DNA of 64,000 nucleotides from Arenibacter certesii DSM 19833 (lineage in GTDB: Bacteria > Bacteroidota > Bacteroidia > Flavobacteriales > Flavobacteriaceae): positions 124,001-188,000 of the forward strand of contig NZ_AUCB01000003.1 in assembly GCF_000429545.1 (NCBI RefSeq). Reading direction: 5' to 3'. Both the position numbers and the translations under genes were made by a program. A model generated the notes under the pieces. The model worked only from the letters and a program-made list of their open reading frames with translations, ran no database searches and was not told the origin of the DNA. Of this stretch, positions 9,093 to 32,814 are shown one piece after another; the stretch's first letter is position 1; each line of letters starts with the position of its first letter.

Positions 9093-12000
9093 TTAAAATG
9101 AGAATTTTACATTAAAACCATAAGATCTTGTCATAGGGAATGACATGGATTCTATTCCTTTATAAATATTTGATCCATTTACCATTCCTGTATCCGGATC
9201 GTATTGTGGGAAATCTGTTATCGTAATTAAATTGGTGGCATAGACTCCAAGACTAACACTGTGAAATAGATCTGTTTTTTGCAAGAAACGCTCTGGTAAT
9301 TGATAGTCCAGTCTTACTTCTTTTAATTTTAAATAAGAAGTATCAAATGTATTCATCTCTGTATTGTTACGATTCCAAATATAGGAGTTGTAATACGTCT
9401 GAATACTCTGGGTTACGGTATTGTTCTTGGTATAGCTCACGGATCCATCATTGTTATTTACAACATTTACCCCAGGGTGAACCAATCCATCATACCTTCC
9501 TTCCAAAGAGTTTTTTAGCTTTCCTTGATAGGAAAGGGCAAAGTTGGTTACGGAAAAGGCATTTCCTCCCATTTGCCCTGTAAAGGCTGCTGTTAAGGAT
9601 AGGTTCTTGTACCTAAAACGCTGAGTCATTCCTCCTCTCCAATCAGGATTTACGTTTCCAATTTTACGATTTGGTGATTCGTCTAAAATGGGATATCCGT
9701 CTGCGTTTACAAGATGCATTCCTGAAGCGTCTACCTGTTGGCCATTCTCATCTGTATACACTGAACCTTCGGGTGCTCTTTGAAAACCTCTTCCATAGAT
9801 TACGTGCATTTGTTCACCTACATAGGAATAAATGTAAGTACGTCCTCCAATGGTAGTCCCCATGTCTGTTTGCAAAGGCTCATTGGGATCCCATCCATCT
9901 TGTAAACTTACCAGTTTGTTCTTGTTTTTTGACCAGGTCAGATCAAAGGACCAATCAAAATCTTGGGTTCTGACCGGAGCAAAATTTGCCGATACCTCTA
10001 TTCCTTCGTTGGTAATTTCTCCGGCATTGATCTTCATCCCAGTTGCCCCTGTAATTTGATCTACGTCTACCGAAACAATCTGGTTAGTAGTAGAGGAGTG
10101 GTACCAAGTAACATCAAATGACACTCGATTTTTGAAAAGTTTGGCTTCGATTCCCGCTTCCCAACTTTCCACATTTTCAGGTTTGATCAATGGATCTGGA
10201 ATAGTACCTGGCAACGTATATCCGCCAGGGTAGGAGGAGTTTCCATAGTATTGATCTAAGGAATAGGGCGATGTATCATTCCCTACATTTGCCCATGAGA
10301 ATCTTAGTTTAGTAAAGTCTATCCATGGTACATTCGACTTAAAATCCAGTACTCTGTCCATAAGAATACTCGTAGCCACCGAGGGATAGAAGAAAGACCA
10401 GTTACCTCTGGATAGGGTGCTAGACCAATCATTACGCCCTGTAATATCAACAAAATAGGTGTCGTCCCAGCTAAGTGAGGCCATCCCGAATAAGCTGTTC
10501 ACAATTTTTTTACTACGGTAATTGTAGGGCTCCGGAATTACTCCCGTTGGAAGGTTGGAAGTATGATAGATTCCCTCTTCCCCTAGTTTGTCCAAAGTGA
10601 GTCTGTTATTATAGTACTCATTGATCCTGTTATTACCTCCTACAAAAGTTGATAGTCCAAAACGGCCGTCCGCTATATTATTGTTGGTATAACGCAACAT
10701 AAAATCGTTATTGTTTTCTATGACTCTAACAGTTTGTTCCCTATAAAATCCGTCTTGATATCCATCGGTGTAAAATGGTCTCCGTTGGGTACGGAATTCA
10801 TCCGACCAATCCAATCCAGAACCTACGTCTAAGGTTAATCCCTCCATTATGTCAAATGTGAGTCCTACACTTCCGAAAACTCTATTTTTATCATATGCAT
10901 TAGTTGCTTCGTATAAGGTTCGATAGGGATTATAGCCACTGGTAGATGGATATACCAATCCTTGGCCATCTTCCCCTTGTGCGGCCCAGTTGGCGTAATT
11001 ATAGCGTCCTTCAAAATATTCTTCTTTCCAAGCATCTATACTGTTAACATTAAAGCCCCAGACCAATGCATACATTGGATTACTGGCACTATATCCACCT
11101 CCGGGCATGTTGTCACTACTTTTTAAGTAATAATTGATTTTAGTATTGAACTTTATTTTATCGCTTATGGGCGTATTAAAAGCCAAGGAAATGGTCTTTT
11201 TATCGAAACCTGTATTTGGAAGTATCCAATCGTTTTTATAATCTGTTACTGAAAATCGGGTACTGGTGCCTTTTCCATTGCTGCCACTAAGACTAACGGT
11301 GTTACTAGTGGTTAAACCGGTGCGGAATAGACCTGTATACCAGTCGTCTTGATATTCCCATGGTAATTTGGAGAACTCGCCCGTGTCCCAGTTTTTAGAC
11401 GCATATAAATAGCGTAATTTACCTGAGTCAAATTTTTCCCCAAAGGTGTAGCGGGAGTAACGTCTTGGTACGGCCACCCCGTCTGGGGCCATTTCGGGAG
11501 TTAGTTCCCACAAAGAATATTCTCCAGACCCCATATCGGAACCATTACCGTATTCTTTTTGAAAATCGGGAAAGTACCCTGCTTGTTCAAAAGTTACCGA
11601 AGAACTTACCGATACCCCTAGGCCTTTACTTTTCCTACCCGATTTTGTAGTGACAACAATTGCTCCGTTGGCTGCCCTTGAGCCATATAGTGCAGCTGCA
11701 GCCGGACCTTTAAGTACCGAAACGGAGGCAATATCATCGGGGTTAAGATCACTCATTCCGTTACCGTAATCTATTGGTGCATCGCCCTGCGCATAATTAC
11801 TTACACTCTTTGTTGCCGTTGCTCCTGAAGTAACTGGAACACCATCTATTACAAAAAGTGCTTCGTTGCTTCCATAATTCAAAGATTGGTCTCCTCTTAA
11901 GGTTACTCTCATAGATCCACTTGGGCCCGTGCCAGCCTGATCAAAAGTTAAGCCGGCAACTTTTCCGGACATACCATTTAGCCAGTTACCGGTAACCGCT

Positions 12001-12392
12001 TTATTTATTTCTTCTCCTTCCACTTTAGAAATGGAATAACCCAAGGACTTTTCTTCTCTGGTAATATTAAGTGCTGTAACAACCACTTCATCCAGGGCAT
12101 TTGTATCCTCTAGCATGATTATTTCTAGACGTTCTCCCGATTTGGTGGTTACCTCTTGGGTGATATATCCTATGAACGAAACAATTAAATTAGTTTCTTT
12201 TTTTGTGGGTTTTAAACTAAAGATTCCATCAAAATCGGTAACAACCCCGTTGTTGGTGCCTTTCTCTAAGATCGTGGCTCCTGGTAATGGATTTCCATCG
12301 GCATAAACAGTTCCTGTAACCGTTTGTCCATACGTAAACGATGTTATGGTAAATAACACCAGTAGCGTAACTAGTTGGTTAATTTCTCTCAT
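9093..12392 (-). CDS. SusC/RagA-like TonB-linked outer-membrane receptor
   Basis: This 1,099-aa protein has a cleavable signal peptide (about residues 1-22, ending TYGQ). A CarboxypepD_reg-like domain (about 23-95) and the TonB-box-like linker LDEVVVTALN follow. The plug domain carries SVSVLKGPAAAALYGSRAAN, then comes a long beta-barrel ending in the expected aromatic residue (NVKFSF). It is the TonB-dependent importer paired with the SusD lid encoded 11 bp downstream. A -7 element 30 bp upstream of the ATG suggests it is the first gene of the operon that continues down to the GDPD and sialidase-like genes. The DeoR-type regulator at 16952 or an unlinked regulator could control it; no SusR, anti-sigma or hybrid two-component gene is present here. 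Confidence 0.95.
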   Translation of the reverse strand: MREINQLVTLLVLFTITSFTYGQTVTGTVYADGNPLPGATILEKGTNNGVVTDFDGIFSLKPTKKETNLIVSFIGYITQEVTTKSGERLEIIMLEDTNALDEVVVTALNITREEKSLGYSISKVEGEEINKAVTGNWLNGMSGKVAGLTFDQAGTGPSGSMRVTLRGDQSLNYGSNEALFVIDGVPVTSGATATKSVSNYAQGDAPIDYGNGMSDLNPDDIASVSVLKGPAAAALYGSRAANGAIVVTTKSGRKSKGLGVSVSSSVTFEQAGYFPDFQKEYGNGSDMGSGEYSLWELTPEMAPDGVAVPRRYSRYTFGEKFDSGKLRYLYASKNWDTGEFSKLPWEYQDDWYTGLFRTGLTTSNTVSLSGSNGKGTSTRFSVTDYKNDWILPNTGFDKKTISLAFNTPISDKIKFNTKINYYLKSSDNMPGGGYSASNPMYALVWGFNVNSIDAWKEEYFEGRYNYANWAAQGEDGQGLVYPSTSGYNPYRTLYEATNAYDKNRVFGSVGLTFDIMEGLTLDVGSGLDWSDEFRTQRRPFYTDGYQDGFYREQTVRVIENNNDFMLRYTNNNIADGRFGLSTFVGGNNRINEYYNNRLTLDKLGEEGIYHTSNLPTGVIPEPYNYRSKKIVNSLFGMASLSWDDTYFVDITGRNDWSSTLSRGNWSFFYPSVATSILMDRVLDFKSNVPWIDFTKLRFSWANVGNDTSPYSLDQYYGNSSYPGGYTLPGTIPDPLIKPENVESWEAGIEAKLFKNRVSFDVTWYHSSTTNQIVSVDVDQITGATGMKINAGEITNEGIEVSANFAPVRTQDFDWSFDLTWSKNKNKLVSLQDGWDPNEPLQTDMGTTIGGRTYIYSYVGEQMHVIYGRGFQRAPEGSVYTDENGQQVDASGMHLVNADGYPILDESPNRKIGNVNPDWRGGMTQRFRYKNLSLTAAFTGQMGGNAFSVTNFALSYQGKLKNSLEGRYDGLVHPGVNVVNNNDGSVSYTKNNTVTQSIQTYYNSYIWNRNNTEMNTFDTSYLKLKEVRLDYQLPERFLQKTDLFHSVSLGVYATNLITITDFPQYDPDTGMVNGSNIYKGIESMSFPMTRSYGFNVKFSF

Positions 12393-29447: not shown

Positions 29448-30056
29448 ATGGCTTTTGAATTACCAAAATTACCTTATGCGTACGACGCGCTGGAACCACA
29501 TATTGATGCTAGAACGATGGAAATTCATCACACAAAGCATCACAATGGTTATACTACCAATTTAAACAATGCTATTGAGGGGACCGATATGGCTAATAAG
29601 TCAATTGAAGACTTGTTAAAAAATATGGATATGTCCAATGCTGCGGTTAGAAATAATGGGGGAGGTTTTTATAACCATTCCTTGTTTTGGGAGATCATGT
29701 CGCCAGAAGGCGGTGGCGAGCCAACCGGTGATCTGGCAGATGCCATAAAATCTAGTTTTGGCTCTTTTGAGTCCTTTAAGGATGCTTTTGCAAAAGCGGC
29801 AGGAACAAGATTTGGTTCTGGATGGGCTTGGCTATGTGTTCACAAAGGTGGTAAATTGGAAATTTGTTCTACCCCTAACCAAGATAACCCCCTTATGCCA
29901 GATACAGGCTGTGGAGGCTTCCCAATCTTAGGCTTGGACGTATGGGAGCATGCTTATTATCTAAATTACCAAAATAGAAGGCCAGATTATATCAATGCCT
30001 TTTTTAATGTGGTGAACTGGGAAAAAGTTGCTGCCTCTTACGGAGAAAATAAGTAA
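29448..30056 (+). CDS. sodA: Superoxide dismutase, Mn type (Mn/Fe family)
   Basis: The 202-aa enzyme converts superoxide to hydrogen peroxide and oxygen. The four metal ligands fit His27, His77, Asp164 and His168 ([12 protein letters not shown]). The outer-sphere glutamine is in the C-terminal half at Gln145 (STPNQDNPL), and [13 protein letters not shown] follows, as in manganese enzymes; iron enzymes carry it elsewhere. Cambialistic use cannot be excluded. There is no signal peptide, so it is cytoplasmic. It is a single gene with its own -7 box and a clear terminator. The RNA cluster downstream is on the opposite strand. Confidence 0.95.
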
Positions 30057-30108
30057 TTAGTGTTATAGTCCAACGTTAACGCGTATTGTTAACGAATGGT
30101 GAATTTTA

Positions 30109-30150
30109 ATGTCCCGTCTTAATATTATATTAGGACGGGACATTTTTTTA
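30109..30150 (+). terminator. Rho-independent terminator after sodA
   Basis: The inverted repeat GTCCCGTC (30111-30118) and GACGGGAC (30134-30141) is flanked by AT pairs and followed by a run of seven T. It lies about 55 bp after the sodA stop codon. Confidence 0.85.
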
Positions 30151-30167
30151 TAGACGGTAGAAAACAG

Positions 30168-30237
30168 AAAAGGGCGGGGAAACCCCACCCTTTTCATCCC
30201 AAATCTTACCATAAACTTAACCTACTTATGCTATGGC
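30168..30237 (-). ncRNA. Candidate small RNA, copy A of three
   Basis: Read on the minus strand, a ~42-nt 5' block begins CCATAGCATAAGTAGGTTAA (30236 downward), continues GTTTATGGTAAGATTTGGG and ends in a GC hairpin (AAAAGGG...CCCTTTT, 30168-30194) with a U run. This block is nearly identical to copies B and C, whereas the hairpin stem differs in sequence. Five bases upstream of the start is TATTTTAG (30249-30242), one mismatch from TAnnTTTG, at the same spacing as in the other copies. This copy differs by starting GCCATAG instead of ACCATAG and by TATGG where the others have CATGG, which adds one pair to the CCAT/ATGG stem. No function is known to me. Confidence 0.7.
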
Positions 30238-30521
30238 GGGACTAAAATACTGGTATTGTGAGATATAAAAAAGTTTTTTTGGGAGTTTTTCAGGTATATC
30301 TATTGTAAAAACAGAGGATTTATTGCACAGCTTGCATTATTTTTTGTTAAAATGCTGATTTTCAATAATTAAGATTAAAGAGGTTGTAATTGTGTTTTTG
30401 CAAACTAGGATAAGGAAAGATGGATATGCTTTTTAATCACAAAAGATTATGGGGTGTAAATTACAGGGAAAAAACCGTAGGATGTAAGAAGTCCTATGAG
30501 CTCCTAAATCTTGTTGAAAAT

Positions 30522-30593
30522 AAAAAGGCAGAGCATGATGCTCTGCCTTTTTCCCCAAATCTTACCATGAACTTAACCTACTTATGCTATGGT
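30522..30593 (-). ncRNA. Candidate small RNA, copy B of three
   Basis: On the minus strand the transcript would start at 30593 (ACCATAGCATAAGTAGG). It runs through the conserved block to GATTTGGGG and ends in the hairpin GGCAGAGCAT/ATGCTCTGCC with U5 (30522-30552). The promoter is the best of the set: TATGTTTG (30605-30598) matches TAnnTTTG exactly, five bases before the start. CCAT at the 5' end can pair with ATGG 20 nt later, leaving GCATAAGTAGGTTAAG in the loop. The hairpin stem shares no sequence with copies A or C. A plus-strand open frame of 64 codons across this region is not a gene: it would read through the hairpin and conserved block. Confidence 0.78.
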
Positions 30594-30738
30594 ACATCAA
30601 ACATAAGGCTATAGTTGATAGGGAGAAAAGGTTTTGGTTGAATGTCGCTTTAATAGGTTGAAATGCATTTTTATAGTTAAAGCGTTATAAATAAACGTTG
30701 AAGAAAATTGGAAGAAAAGATGCGCGATTATTGACAAT

Positions 30739-30811
30739 AAAAAAGGCGGGGATTTCCCCGCCTTTTTTGCCCCAAATCTTACCATGAACTTAAACCTACT
30801 TATGCTATGGT
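30739..30811 (-). ncRNA. Candidate small RNA, copy C of three
   Basis: On the minus strand it starts ACCATAGCATAAGTAGG at 30811 and keeps the same block with one extra base (GTTTAAG instead of GTTAAG). It ends in the hairpin GGCGGGG/CCCCGCC with U6 (30739-30768). The -7 box is TACTTTAG (30823-30816), one mismatch, with the same spacing as copies A and B. It lies 105 bp beyond the purF stop codon on the same strand, so its hairpin could also end purF transcription. The conserved 5' block and the varying terminator stem show that selection acts on the 5' part. Confidence 0.73.
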
Positions 30812-30915
30812 GATACTAAAGTAGTAGTGCTCAGTACGATTGTAATTATAATTGCGTTGAAAAGTGTTAATTATCGATGAAATGCACTTTCTTGTTAATT
30901 TATGATAAGTAAATG

Positions 30916-32814
30916 TTAATATGCTCTTTCATTCTTGCCTTCATAAAAGTTTATAAATGCCCTATTTACTACCCTGTTGCCTCCTGGGGTGGGGTAATCT
31001 CCTGTAAAATACCAATCACCTAAATTTTTTGGACACGCTTGATGAAGATTATCAATGGTCTGGTAGATGATTTGTACTTCGGCATTAATATCGGAAGGAC
31101 TCAATAATTTACCAATTTTATCCGAGATTTCCTCATCTGTAAATGGCGTATAGAAATCCTTAACATAGTTCACCACCTCGGTATCCTTATTGTTTACTTG
31201 TTGTAGGCATTTCTGATATATATCTTCTACCAAATGCATGGTGTTTCTTTCTTCATGCAAGGTTAAAGCAGCTTTAAATGCAATGAAATCTTCTAGTTTG
31301 GCCATGTCTATTCCGTAGCAATCGGGGTAGCGGATCTGCGGTGCAGAGGAAACTACTATAATTTTCTTGGGGGATAAACGGTCCAATATACCGAGGATGC
31401 TCTTTTTAAGGGTGGTTCCCCTCACAATACTATCGTCAATAATTACAAGATTGTCGCCCTTTTTTACAGAACCGTAGGAGATGTCATAAACGTGAGCAAC
31501 TAAGTCGTCCCTACTACTGTCCTGAGTAATAAACGTTCTTAATTTTGCGTCTTTAATGGCTACCTTTTCTATTCTTGGACGTACTTCTAAAATAGAATGC
31601 AATTCTTCTGCAGTTATTCTTCTGCCTATAGAAAGAATCTGCTCTTCCTTCTTTTTGTTCATGTAATTCTGCGCTGCGATTACCATCCCAAAGAATGATG
31701 TTTCGGCAGTATTTGGAATATAGGAGAATACGGTGTTGCGTATATCCTCTTCTATGGATTTTAAGATCAAAGGGAAAAGTAGTTTTCCCAACTCTTTCCT
31801 TTCTTGGTATATTTCCTTATCGCTTCCTCTTGAAAAATAAATACGCTCAAAAGAACATGCTTTTCTTTCTGTGGGTTCTAGAATTTTTTTGATTTTGACG
31901 GTGCCATTTTTTTTGATGATAATGGCATGACCCGGGTCTAATTCTTTAACATCCTCGAAGCTTACGTTAAAAACGGTCTGAATAGCGGGTCTCTCTGAAG
32001 CTACAACCGCAATTTCGTCGTCCATATAATAATAGGCGGGTCTTATCCCTGCAGGGTCTCTAAGCACAAAAGAATCTCCGTGGCCTAATAATCCGGCCAT
32101 GGTAAATCCGCCGTCAAAATTTTTGCCAGCTCTTTTTAGGATTTTTGCAACATTTAATCTTTCGGCTATAAGTGGAGAAGCTTCCCTTTTATTATATCCT
32201 TCTTTTTTTACCTCTTTATATAGCTTTGCTACCGCATCATCCAAAAAGTGACCTATTTTTTCCATAACGGTTACGGTGTCGGCCTTTTCTTTAGGATGTT
32301 GGCCAATTTGGATCAAGTTGTCAAAAAGCTCATTAACATTGGTCATGTTAAAGTTTCCTGCAACAATAAGATTGCGGTGCATCCAGTTGTTTTGTCTTAA
32401 AAAAGGATGTACGTTTTCTATACTATTTTTTCCGAAGGTTCCATAGCGTACATGGCCTAAAAGCACTTCCCCTATATAAGGAATATGTCTTTTTTGTTTG
32501 GCTACATCATCCACATATTCTGGATGCTCTTTAAAGCTAGTGTTTATGCGTTCGTTGATCTGGGAAAAAATATCCTGAATAGGTTGCTTATCTATGGATC
32601 TAACTCGGCTCATATATCTTTCGCCAACTTCCATATCTAGCTTTATACTGGCAAAACCAGCCCCGTCCTGACCGCGGTTATGCTGTTTTTCCATCATCAA
32701 GTACATTTTGTTCACCCCGTAAAATGCGGTGCCGTACTTTTCTTTATAATACTCTAATGGCTTTAGCAACCTTATTAGGGAAACTCCACATTCGTGTTTA
32801 ATGGCGTCGCTCAT
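30916..32814 (-). CDS. purF: Amidophosphoribosyltransferase (purine synthesis, first step)
   Basis: The 632-aa enzyme transfers glutamine amide nitrogen to PRPP, making phosphoribosylamine. The N-terminal Ntn-type glutaminase begins at Cys9 (HECGVSLI), which would become the nucleophile after a short propeptide is removed. HNRGQDGAGFAS and HVRYGTFG lie in this domain. The PRPP motif VIIDDSIVRGTT is at 457-468. It is longer than the roughly 500-aa E. coli enzyme, as is usual for this branch in Bacteroidota. It is downstream of the PfkB kinase gene, separated by a terminator hairpin. Confidence 0.95.
   Translation of the reverse strand: MSDAIKHECGVSLIRLLKPLEYYKEKYGTAFYGVNKMYLMMEKQHNRGQDGAGFASIKLDMEVGERYMSRVRSIDKQPIQDIFSQINERINTSFKEHPEYVDDVAKQKRHIPYIGEVLLGHVRYGTFGKNSIENVHPFLRQNNWMHRNLIVAGNFNMTNVNELFDNLIQIGQHPKEKADTVTVMEKIGHFLDDAVAKLYKEVKKEGYNKREASPLIAERLNVAKILKRAGKNFDGGFTMAGLLGHGDSFVLRDPAGIRPAYYYMDDEIAVVASERPAIQTVFNVSFEDVKELDPGHAIIIKKNGTVKIKKILEPTERKACSFERIYFSRGSDKEIYQERKELGKLLFPLILKSIEEDIRNTVFSYIPNTAETSFFGMVIAAQNYMNKKKEEQILSIGRRITAEELHSILEVRPRIEKVAIKDAKLRTFITQDSSRDDLVAHVYDISYGSVKKGDNLVIIDDSIVRGTTLKKSILGILDRLSPKKIIVVSSAPQIRYPDCYGIDMAKLEDFIAFKAALTLHEERNTMHLVEDIYQKCLQQVNNKDTEVVNYVKDFYTPFTDEEISDKIGKLLSPSDINAEVQIIYQTIDNLHQACPKNLGDWYFTGDYPTPGGNRVVNRAFINFYEGKNERAY

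Follow-up and report, generated by a model that had tools for sequence, protein, structure and literature searches.

The array and its neighbors

Three tandem units between a purF-like gene and sodA, all on the minus strand, are almost certainly small RNA (sRNA) genes and, judged by sequence, they belong to a real sRNA gene family, very widely conserved and absent from Rfam 15. They lie in the window, the whole 64,000-nucleotide stretch of Arenibacter certesii DSM 19833 DNA that was analyzed. As a whole, the data are probably best explained by a tandem sRNA gene family that acts in trans and whose copies are under differing control.

Every unit consists of a TAnnTTTG-type -7 box, a near-invariant block of 39–40 nt (CCATAGCATAAGTAGGTTAAGTTYATGGTAAGATTTGGG) and an intrinsic terminator, giving a predicted RNA of ∼70–75 nt. 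The original prediction had placed three copies of this 5′ block on the minus strand, and we found them there, starting at 30236, 30592 and 30810. Unit 1, proximal to sodA, has a predicted RNA at 30162..30237 and its block at 30198..30236, of the subclass GTTTATGG ... TTTGGGA; for unit 2, in the middle, the corresponding positions are 30518..30593 and 30554..30592, and for unit 3, proximal to purF, 30734..30811 and 30771..30810. Each predicted RNA runs from +1 to the terminator, begins with a purine downstream of a -7 box, and is recognized by R1, a covariance model of 77 positions built from the alignment A2 of 40 units, with scores of 91.1, 85.8 and 94.5 bits for units 1, 2 and 3. Over 39 nt, a single base distinguishes copy 1 from copy 2, and copy 3 carries one inserted T (GGTTTAAG). 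When up to three mismatches were allowed, the 16-mer GCATAAGTAGGTTAAG matched the window four times, against a shuffle mean of 0.88, and three of these matches were the array copies. Both BLAST with copy 2 and R1 detected three copies in the entire genome.

The upstream neighbor on the same strand (30916..32814, minus) encodes a 632-aa amidophosphoribosyltransferase that we call purF-like because its TIGR01134 score of 131.5 bits falls below the model cut-off of 350; it is thus a divergent enzyme of this type and may not be the canonical PurF. The convergent neighbor (29448..30056, plus) is a sodA-type Fe/Mn superoxide dismutase gene with Sod_Fe_N and Sod_Fe_C domains, and the synteny with both genes is conserved. 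Directly 3′ of sodA, the plus strand has an inverted repeat of 17 pairs followed by a T tail (30108-30144), likely the sodA terminator opposing the sRNA array.

Anatomy of the predicted RNA

All three units end with a GC hairpin followed by a T-rich stretch, as had been claimed, and the hairpins were recovered on the minus strand at 30167..30195 for unit 1, at 30522..30552 for unit 2 (inverted repeat I3) and at 30739..30768 for unit 3 (inverted repeat I4). Each of them folds; a simple terminator scan picked up the hairpin of unit 1 and missed the other two. The statement that the stems are all unlike one another proved too strong, since the GG(N)GGGG hairpins of copies 1 and 3 are related, with 27-nt arms that are 85% complementary, and copy 2 is the odd one. 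The further claim, that the terminator is kept in function, was borne out in 150 units of alignment A4, which was fitted to the model structure and therefore favors the pairing figures: 99.2% of the cells in the terminator helix are paired, with changes on both sides in 10 of its 11 pairs, and 98.0% of those in the 5′ hairpin are paired, with few cells changed on both sides. Covariation support for the 5′ hairpin is small because this hairpin is mostly invariant. Full-length units fold with z-scores of -3.8 to -5.1 (five folds), and the 5′ hairpin alone folds weakly (-0.9 to -2.0, six hairpins).

The layout that emerges is a weak 5′ hairpin with a GUAGG loop, a linker AGAUUUGGG(G) that is predicted to be unpaired, and a covarying terminator. 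Within the loop region, AGUAGG-UUA is one of the two most invariant parts of the 150 aligned units, the other being the single-stranded linker; at the DNA level AGTAGG-TTA and AGATTTGGG are near-invariant. Of these two parts, the original prediction had named the loop alone, as a common target-binding segment.

Promoters and upstream regions

The predicted TAnnTTTG-type boxes were found in a promoter scan of the units, all on the minus strand, as TATTTTAG at 30242..30249 for unit 1, TATGTTTG at 30598..30605 for unit 2 and TACTTTAG at 30816..30823 for unit 3, with predicted transcription starts at 30237, 30593 and 30811. For a broader view, we used 333 distinct units selected on core sequence, mostly at loci that an exact core pattern had retrieved, a selection that inflates core conservation and leaves the promoter figures unaffected, as the box was not used in picking. 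TAnnTTTG was matched at five or more of its six positions in 315 of the 333 units, versus 60 of 1665 control placements, and the spacing was nearly fixed, with 289 of the 315 boxes exactly at -13 to -6 from CCAT and 26 one base farther upstream. In 332 of 333 units a purine directly precedes CCAT, and taking this base as +1 places the -7 box at -12 to -5, which equals the position of the sigma-A box in Flavobacterium psychrophilum (PMC9723704, in part).

Farther upstream, the units diverge. Between random unit pairs, identity was 32% over -110..-51, compared with 96% over core nt 1–22, the latter figure being raised by the choice of units. A 20-base lag signal is present upstream of the -7 box, where the correlation among the 333 units reached 0.089 at a lag of 20 bases and was at most 0.016 at the other lags from 5 to 31. 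Reading the minus strand of the window, we noted a 20-bp-spaced direct repeat upstream of unit 2 (TTCAACC...TTCAACC, 30636..30662) and another upstream of unit 3 (TTCATCG...TTCAACG, 30855..30881), each a possible activator site, and no clear repeat of this spacing upstream of unit 1. The repeat pair resembles a paired activator site and is best regarded as putative. A model of the upstream site, run over 800 kb, scored above 9 at 954 places, the best of them within a coding gene, and for this reason no regulon is claimed.

The copy nearest sodA has a promoter type of its own in part of the family. A promoter of the CACAAT type was seen in 36 of the 333 units, and 34 of these 36 carry the TTTGGGA linker, versus 16 of the 297 others. 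In 40 arrays with at least three units, the upstream regions of last copies resembled one another across loci (0.606) more than they resembled those of their own neighbors (0.384). First copies were not more alike across loci (0.396), so that the data show a separate promoter identity in the last copy alone. Upstream divergence among the copies might allow a nearly identical RNA to be made at several doses or in response to several signals, and the sodA-proximal copy would do so, in part of the family, from its own promoter type and with a slightly different linker.

Distribution of the family

BLAST with copy 2 detected the unit in 31 of 60 genomes, the A. certesii genome included, all of one GTDB family. 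The original prediction had proposed building a covariance model and searching it against genomes, and R1 matched 206 of 249 sampled Flavobacteriaceae genomes, representing 196 of 235 genera, with one to seven matches per genome. These sample searches used Infernal's stricter filters, which weak relatives may escape. Six of the 206 positive genomes matched weakly, with best E-values of 5.7e-6 to 7.9e-4, and may be chance matches; without them the count is 200 of 249.

Beyond the family, R1 matched 25 of 148 genomes in a sample of the order, 17 from the same family and 8 from other families. Among the matches listed, the 17 family genomes scored at least 66 bits and the 8 others 31–38 bits. At the latter loci the opposite strand also matched, with E-values up to 0.5, as is likewise the case for true members through the hairpin, and the DNA retrieved around them had no purF or sodA match; because of these two properties we judge the eight to be chance terminators. 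In a sample of the phylum, R1 matched 23 of 247 genomes, and 23 of 23 were in the same family. A pattern scan of GTDB r220 returned at least 118 stretches, and the named matches among those listed are from flavobacterial genera, e.g., Zobellia, Maribacter, Aquimarina, Winogradskyella, Flagellimonas and Flavobacterium, the remaining listed matches being metagenome-assembled genomes named only to higher rank.

Most of what is known about regulation by sRNAs in the Bacteroidota comes from Bacteroides. A near-invariant sRNA that is present in about four-fifths of the sampled genera, at a usual address, would offer a natural entry point to sRNA regulation in this phylum.

Genomic place

A strict core scan of 178 records found units in 162; the other 16 records include the 8 chance loci and some true loci that are divergent or cut off. 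Both neighbors were in view in 103 of the 162 records, one in 53, and neither in the stretch examined in 6 (L023, L024, L044, L053, L079, L106). In all 103 records with both neighbors, every unit lies between purF and sodA, with the same orientation as purF and converging on sodA. The same placement holds for 94 of 94 distinct loci, defined as having no identical unit in common, with one to six units each and a median spacing of 207 bases. A conserved block found only in coding or mobile-repeat contexts had been named as an observation that would speak against sRNA genes. The block is instead intergenic and syntenic at these 94 loci, viral contigs had no match to the exact pattern, and plasmids had no BLAST match with copy 2.

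In the window the array is whole. In several genomes of the same genus it is split, with part beside the purF-like gene and part beside sodA, so that copies occur at both ends (L012 and L037 in G002; L007 and L036 in G011; L038 and L039 in G015). L023 has two minus-strand copies (3036 and 11660) separated by 8.6 kb; their upstream regions are near-identical, and the stretch examined contains no purF and no sodA, an arrangement indicating that a unit can occur outside its usual place.

Possible targets and protein partners

The mechanism that we propose is that the RNAs would pair in trans with mRNAs near their start codons, using the invariant linker AGAUUUGGG, the hairpin loop or both as seed. 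We lean only slightly toward action by trans base pairing, a choice made by analogy with sRNAs of like architecture. Since Bacteroides FopS RNAs (see below) act on susC mRNAs, pairing was calculated for a SusC set of 28 starts from the A. certesii genome, taken from 30 loci of the 56 matches to TIGR04056, with L203 and L226 left out for having too short a region or an ambiguous start. With the full core, these starts and 237 genes of a same-genus genome (G004) had the same mean, -19.55 kcal/mol; SusC starts thus pair no better than other genes (28 vs 237), which gives no support to SusC mRNAs as preferred targets. In a shuffle test on the SusC set alone, the mean for the full core was lower than that of 200 of 200 mononucleotide shuffles, a result that may reflect general complementarity to start regions; when pieces of the core were used alone, the shuffle fractions were 0.295 for the loop, 0.105 for the linker and 0.625 for the middle. 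A SusC/RagA-like receptor gene match is also present in the window itself, at 9096-12326 on the minus strand (G000:C2:133096-136326).

A search without a preset gene class gave a similar picture. Among k-mers enriched near 591 starts of G004, the flagged words all contain the start codon. Core duplexes of -24 kcal/mol or lower were found for 23 of these 591 genes, compared with 13.6 for shuffled cores, and the ranking of whole-core duplexes showed this weak excess without pointing to a gene class. The original prediction, of sibling regulatory RNAs that bind targets through a common loop, is partly supported: its class was right, the units being an sRNA family, and target binding by the loop is only putative, as pairing to start regions gave no clear target class.

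Known partner proteins were also sought. For Hfq, 0 of 60 family genomes were positive, in contrast to some control genomes, and for the RRM_1 domain (PF00076) the count was also 0 of 60, the A. certesii genome included, with the Bacteroides control positive. A more far-reaching version of our reading is that the units constitute a core post-transcriptional regulator across the Flavobacteriaceae, encoded as tandem siblings at one locus, with at least the last copy having its own promoter identity; because it would work without Hfq or an RRM protein, this version calls for an undiscovered RNA-binding partner, and we put it forward as a tentative possibility that may well be wrong.

CsrB and 6S RNA bind and titrate protein, and the units could in principle do the same, with the invariant block as a protein-binding site and base pairing secondary. 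A stretch of ∼40 nt that is near-invariant across up to 196 of 235 genera is longer than a short seed would require, a tandem arrangement increases the dose, and the target tests yielded no class, all of which fit such a role. On the other hand, the RNA is short, each transcript has a single copy of the motif, and there is no candidate protein, RRM_1 and Hfq being the two that came out at 0 of 60. We regard titration as an unlikely main function.

Comparison with Rfam and with FopS

The original prediction recognized no named RNA family, and this stands, since Rfam 15 gave no match in the window at its curated cut-offs. The best sub-threshold match, STnc40 (34.4 bits against a cut-off of 45), is carried by the hairpin and U-run, and sraA and the other sub-threshold matches are due chiefly to the GC hairpin and U-run; none of them was retained. 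A model of the unit family would supply a family that Rfam 15 is missing.

The known RNAs that most invite comparison are FopS/GibS (RF04319). FopS has 14 paralogues in Bacteroides thetaiotaomicron, which are bound by RbpB and repress SusC translation (PMC11697453, in part). Like the units, they are short multicopy sRNAs with a conserved 5′ block, a canonical -7 promoter and a variable terminator (PMC11697453, in part), and cmscan aligns UUCAUGGUA..AGAUUU..GG of a window copy to the FopS consensus. The units might accordingly be imagined as a flavobacterial arm of a FopS/GibS superfamily, sharing a UUCAUGGUA-AGAUUU block antisense to start regions, a view to which the multicopy, short and terminator-ended nature of both lends itself. 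However, the window copy scores 19.5 bits with the FopS model, for which the Rfam gathering cut-off is 56. None of 60 relatives passes this cut-off, and the weak matches in 2 of the 60 are both outside the family; in the phylum sample, FopS was above cut-off in 2 of 296 genomes, neither of them in the Flavobacteriaceae. The shuffle test of the resemblance was unconvincing: the best pairing beat most shuffles, with 22 and 36 of 3000 as good, but 246 and 313 of 3000 were as good when the alternative form of FopS was used, and as many as 1541 of 3000 for the more distant core in its T variant.

Organization and partner differ as well. FopS genes number 12–15 per genome (PMC11697453, in part), in contrast to the 1–7 units per genome here, and in two matched genomes they occupy mostly separate places, whereas the units are tandem at one syntenic place. 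The 5′ end of FopS is single-stranded, whereas the units have a predicted 5′ hairpin, a weak one, and their predicted single-stranded linker comes after it. The FopS partner RbpB is an RRM-1 protein, of the kind for which the 60 family genomes were negative. Since the units agree with FopS neither in score nor in partner protein or copy layout, they were not classed as FopS, and we consider descent from the same superfamily improbable. At L182 (G053, 1501-1569), in another family of the same order, we noticed a FopS-like sequence of 43.9 bits against the cut-off of 56, possibly a distant FopS relative or a chance match.

Termination and coding

A position between convergent genes raises the question of whether the units are simply serial terminators or insulators, protecting against read-through from the purF-like gene and against convergent sodA transcription. 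The fixed place and the strong hairpins would suit that function, but neither an invariant 39-nt 5′ block nor a precisely spaced -7 box is needed for termination, and 6 of the 162 records with units have neither neighbor in the stretch examined, which makes this explanation very improbable. That the block is a small coding gene is next to negligible, as the ATG that lies within the core in 332 of 333 units opens an MVRFG frame in 211 and an MVDLG frame in 119 of the 333, owing to an indel of one base ahead of GATTTG, and in 188 cases the frame runs through the 90 nt examined without a stop; with two different frames from the core ATG there is no conserved peptide, and the small-peptide reading was rejected as contradicted by the frame shift.

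Relation to other described sRNAs

Using the core sequence as a text query of the literature, we found no paper on the unit, to judge by titles and abstract openings, and the accessible parts of PMC9723704, PMC5395568 and PMC11697453 contain no description of the family. Candidates for an earlier detection do exist. In F. psychrophilum, 85 RNAs were newly described, of which Rfp11, 13, 15 and 18 are conserved beyond the species (PMC9723704, in part). As sRNAs of the same bacterial family, some of them with conservation beyond the species, the Rfp RNAs resemble the units, and one of them could be the orthologue. Rfp18, described with a pairing site in a third stem-loop (PMC9723704, in part), would be set apart by this from the units, which have two predicted hairpins. 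The unit may also have been detected earlier without a family description, e.g., among the candidate sRNAs of F. columnare, which are listed only in a supplement (PMC5395568, in part).

The general kind to which the array would belong, sibling sRNAs encoded by several genes, has precedents in other phyla. Pneumococcal csRNAs and Vibrio Qrr are multicopy sibling sRNAs. Listeria LhrC1-7 are a further example (PMC11697453, in part). In all three, as among the units, near-identical sRNAs are encoded more than once, each with its own promoter, and have a common seed, which in the units is putative; all three are far better characterized. With no Rfam 15 match at cut-off, we see no sequence relationship between them and the units, and the likeness is one of organization: here too, the genes are paralogous and short, and each has its own promoter and its own terminator.
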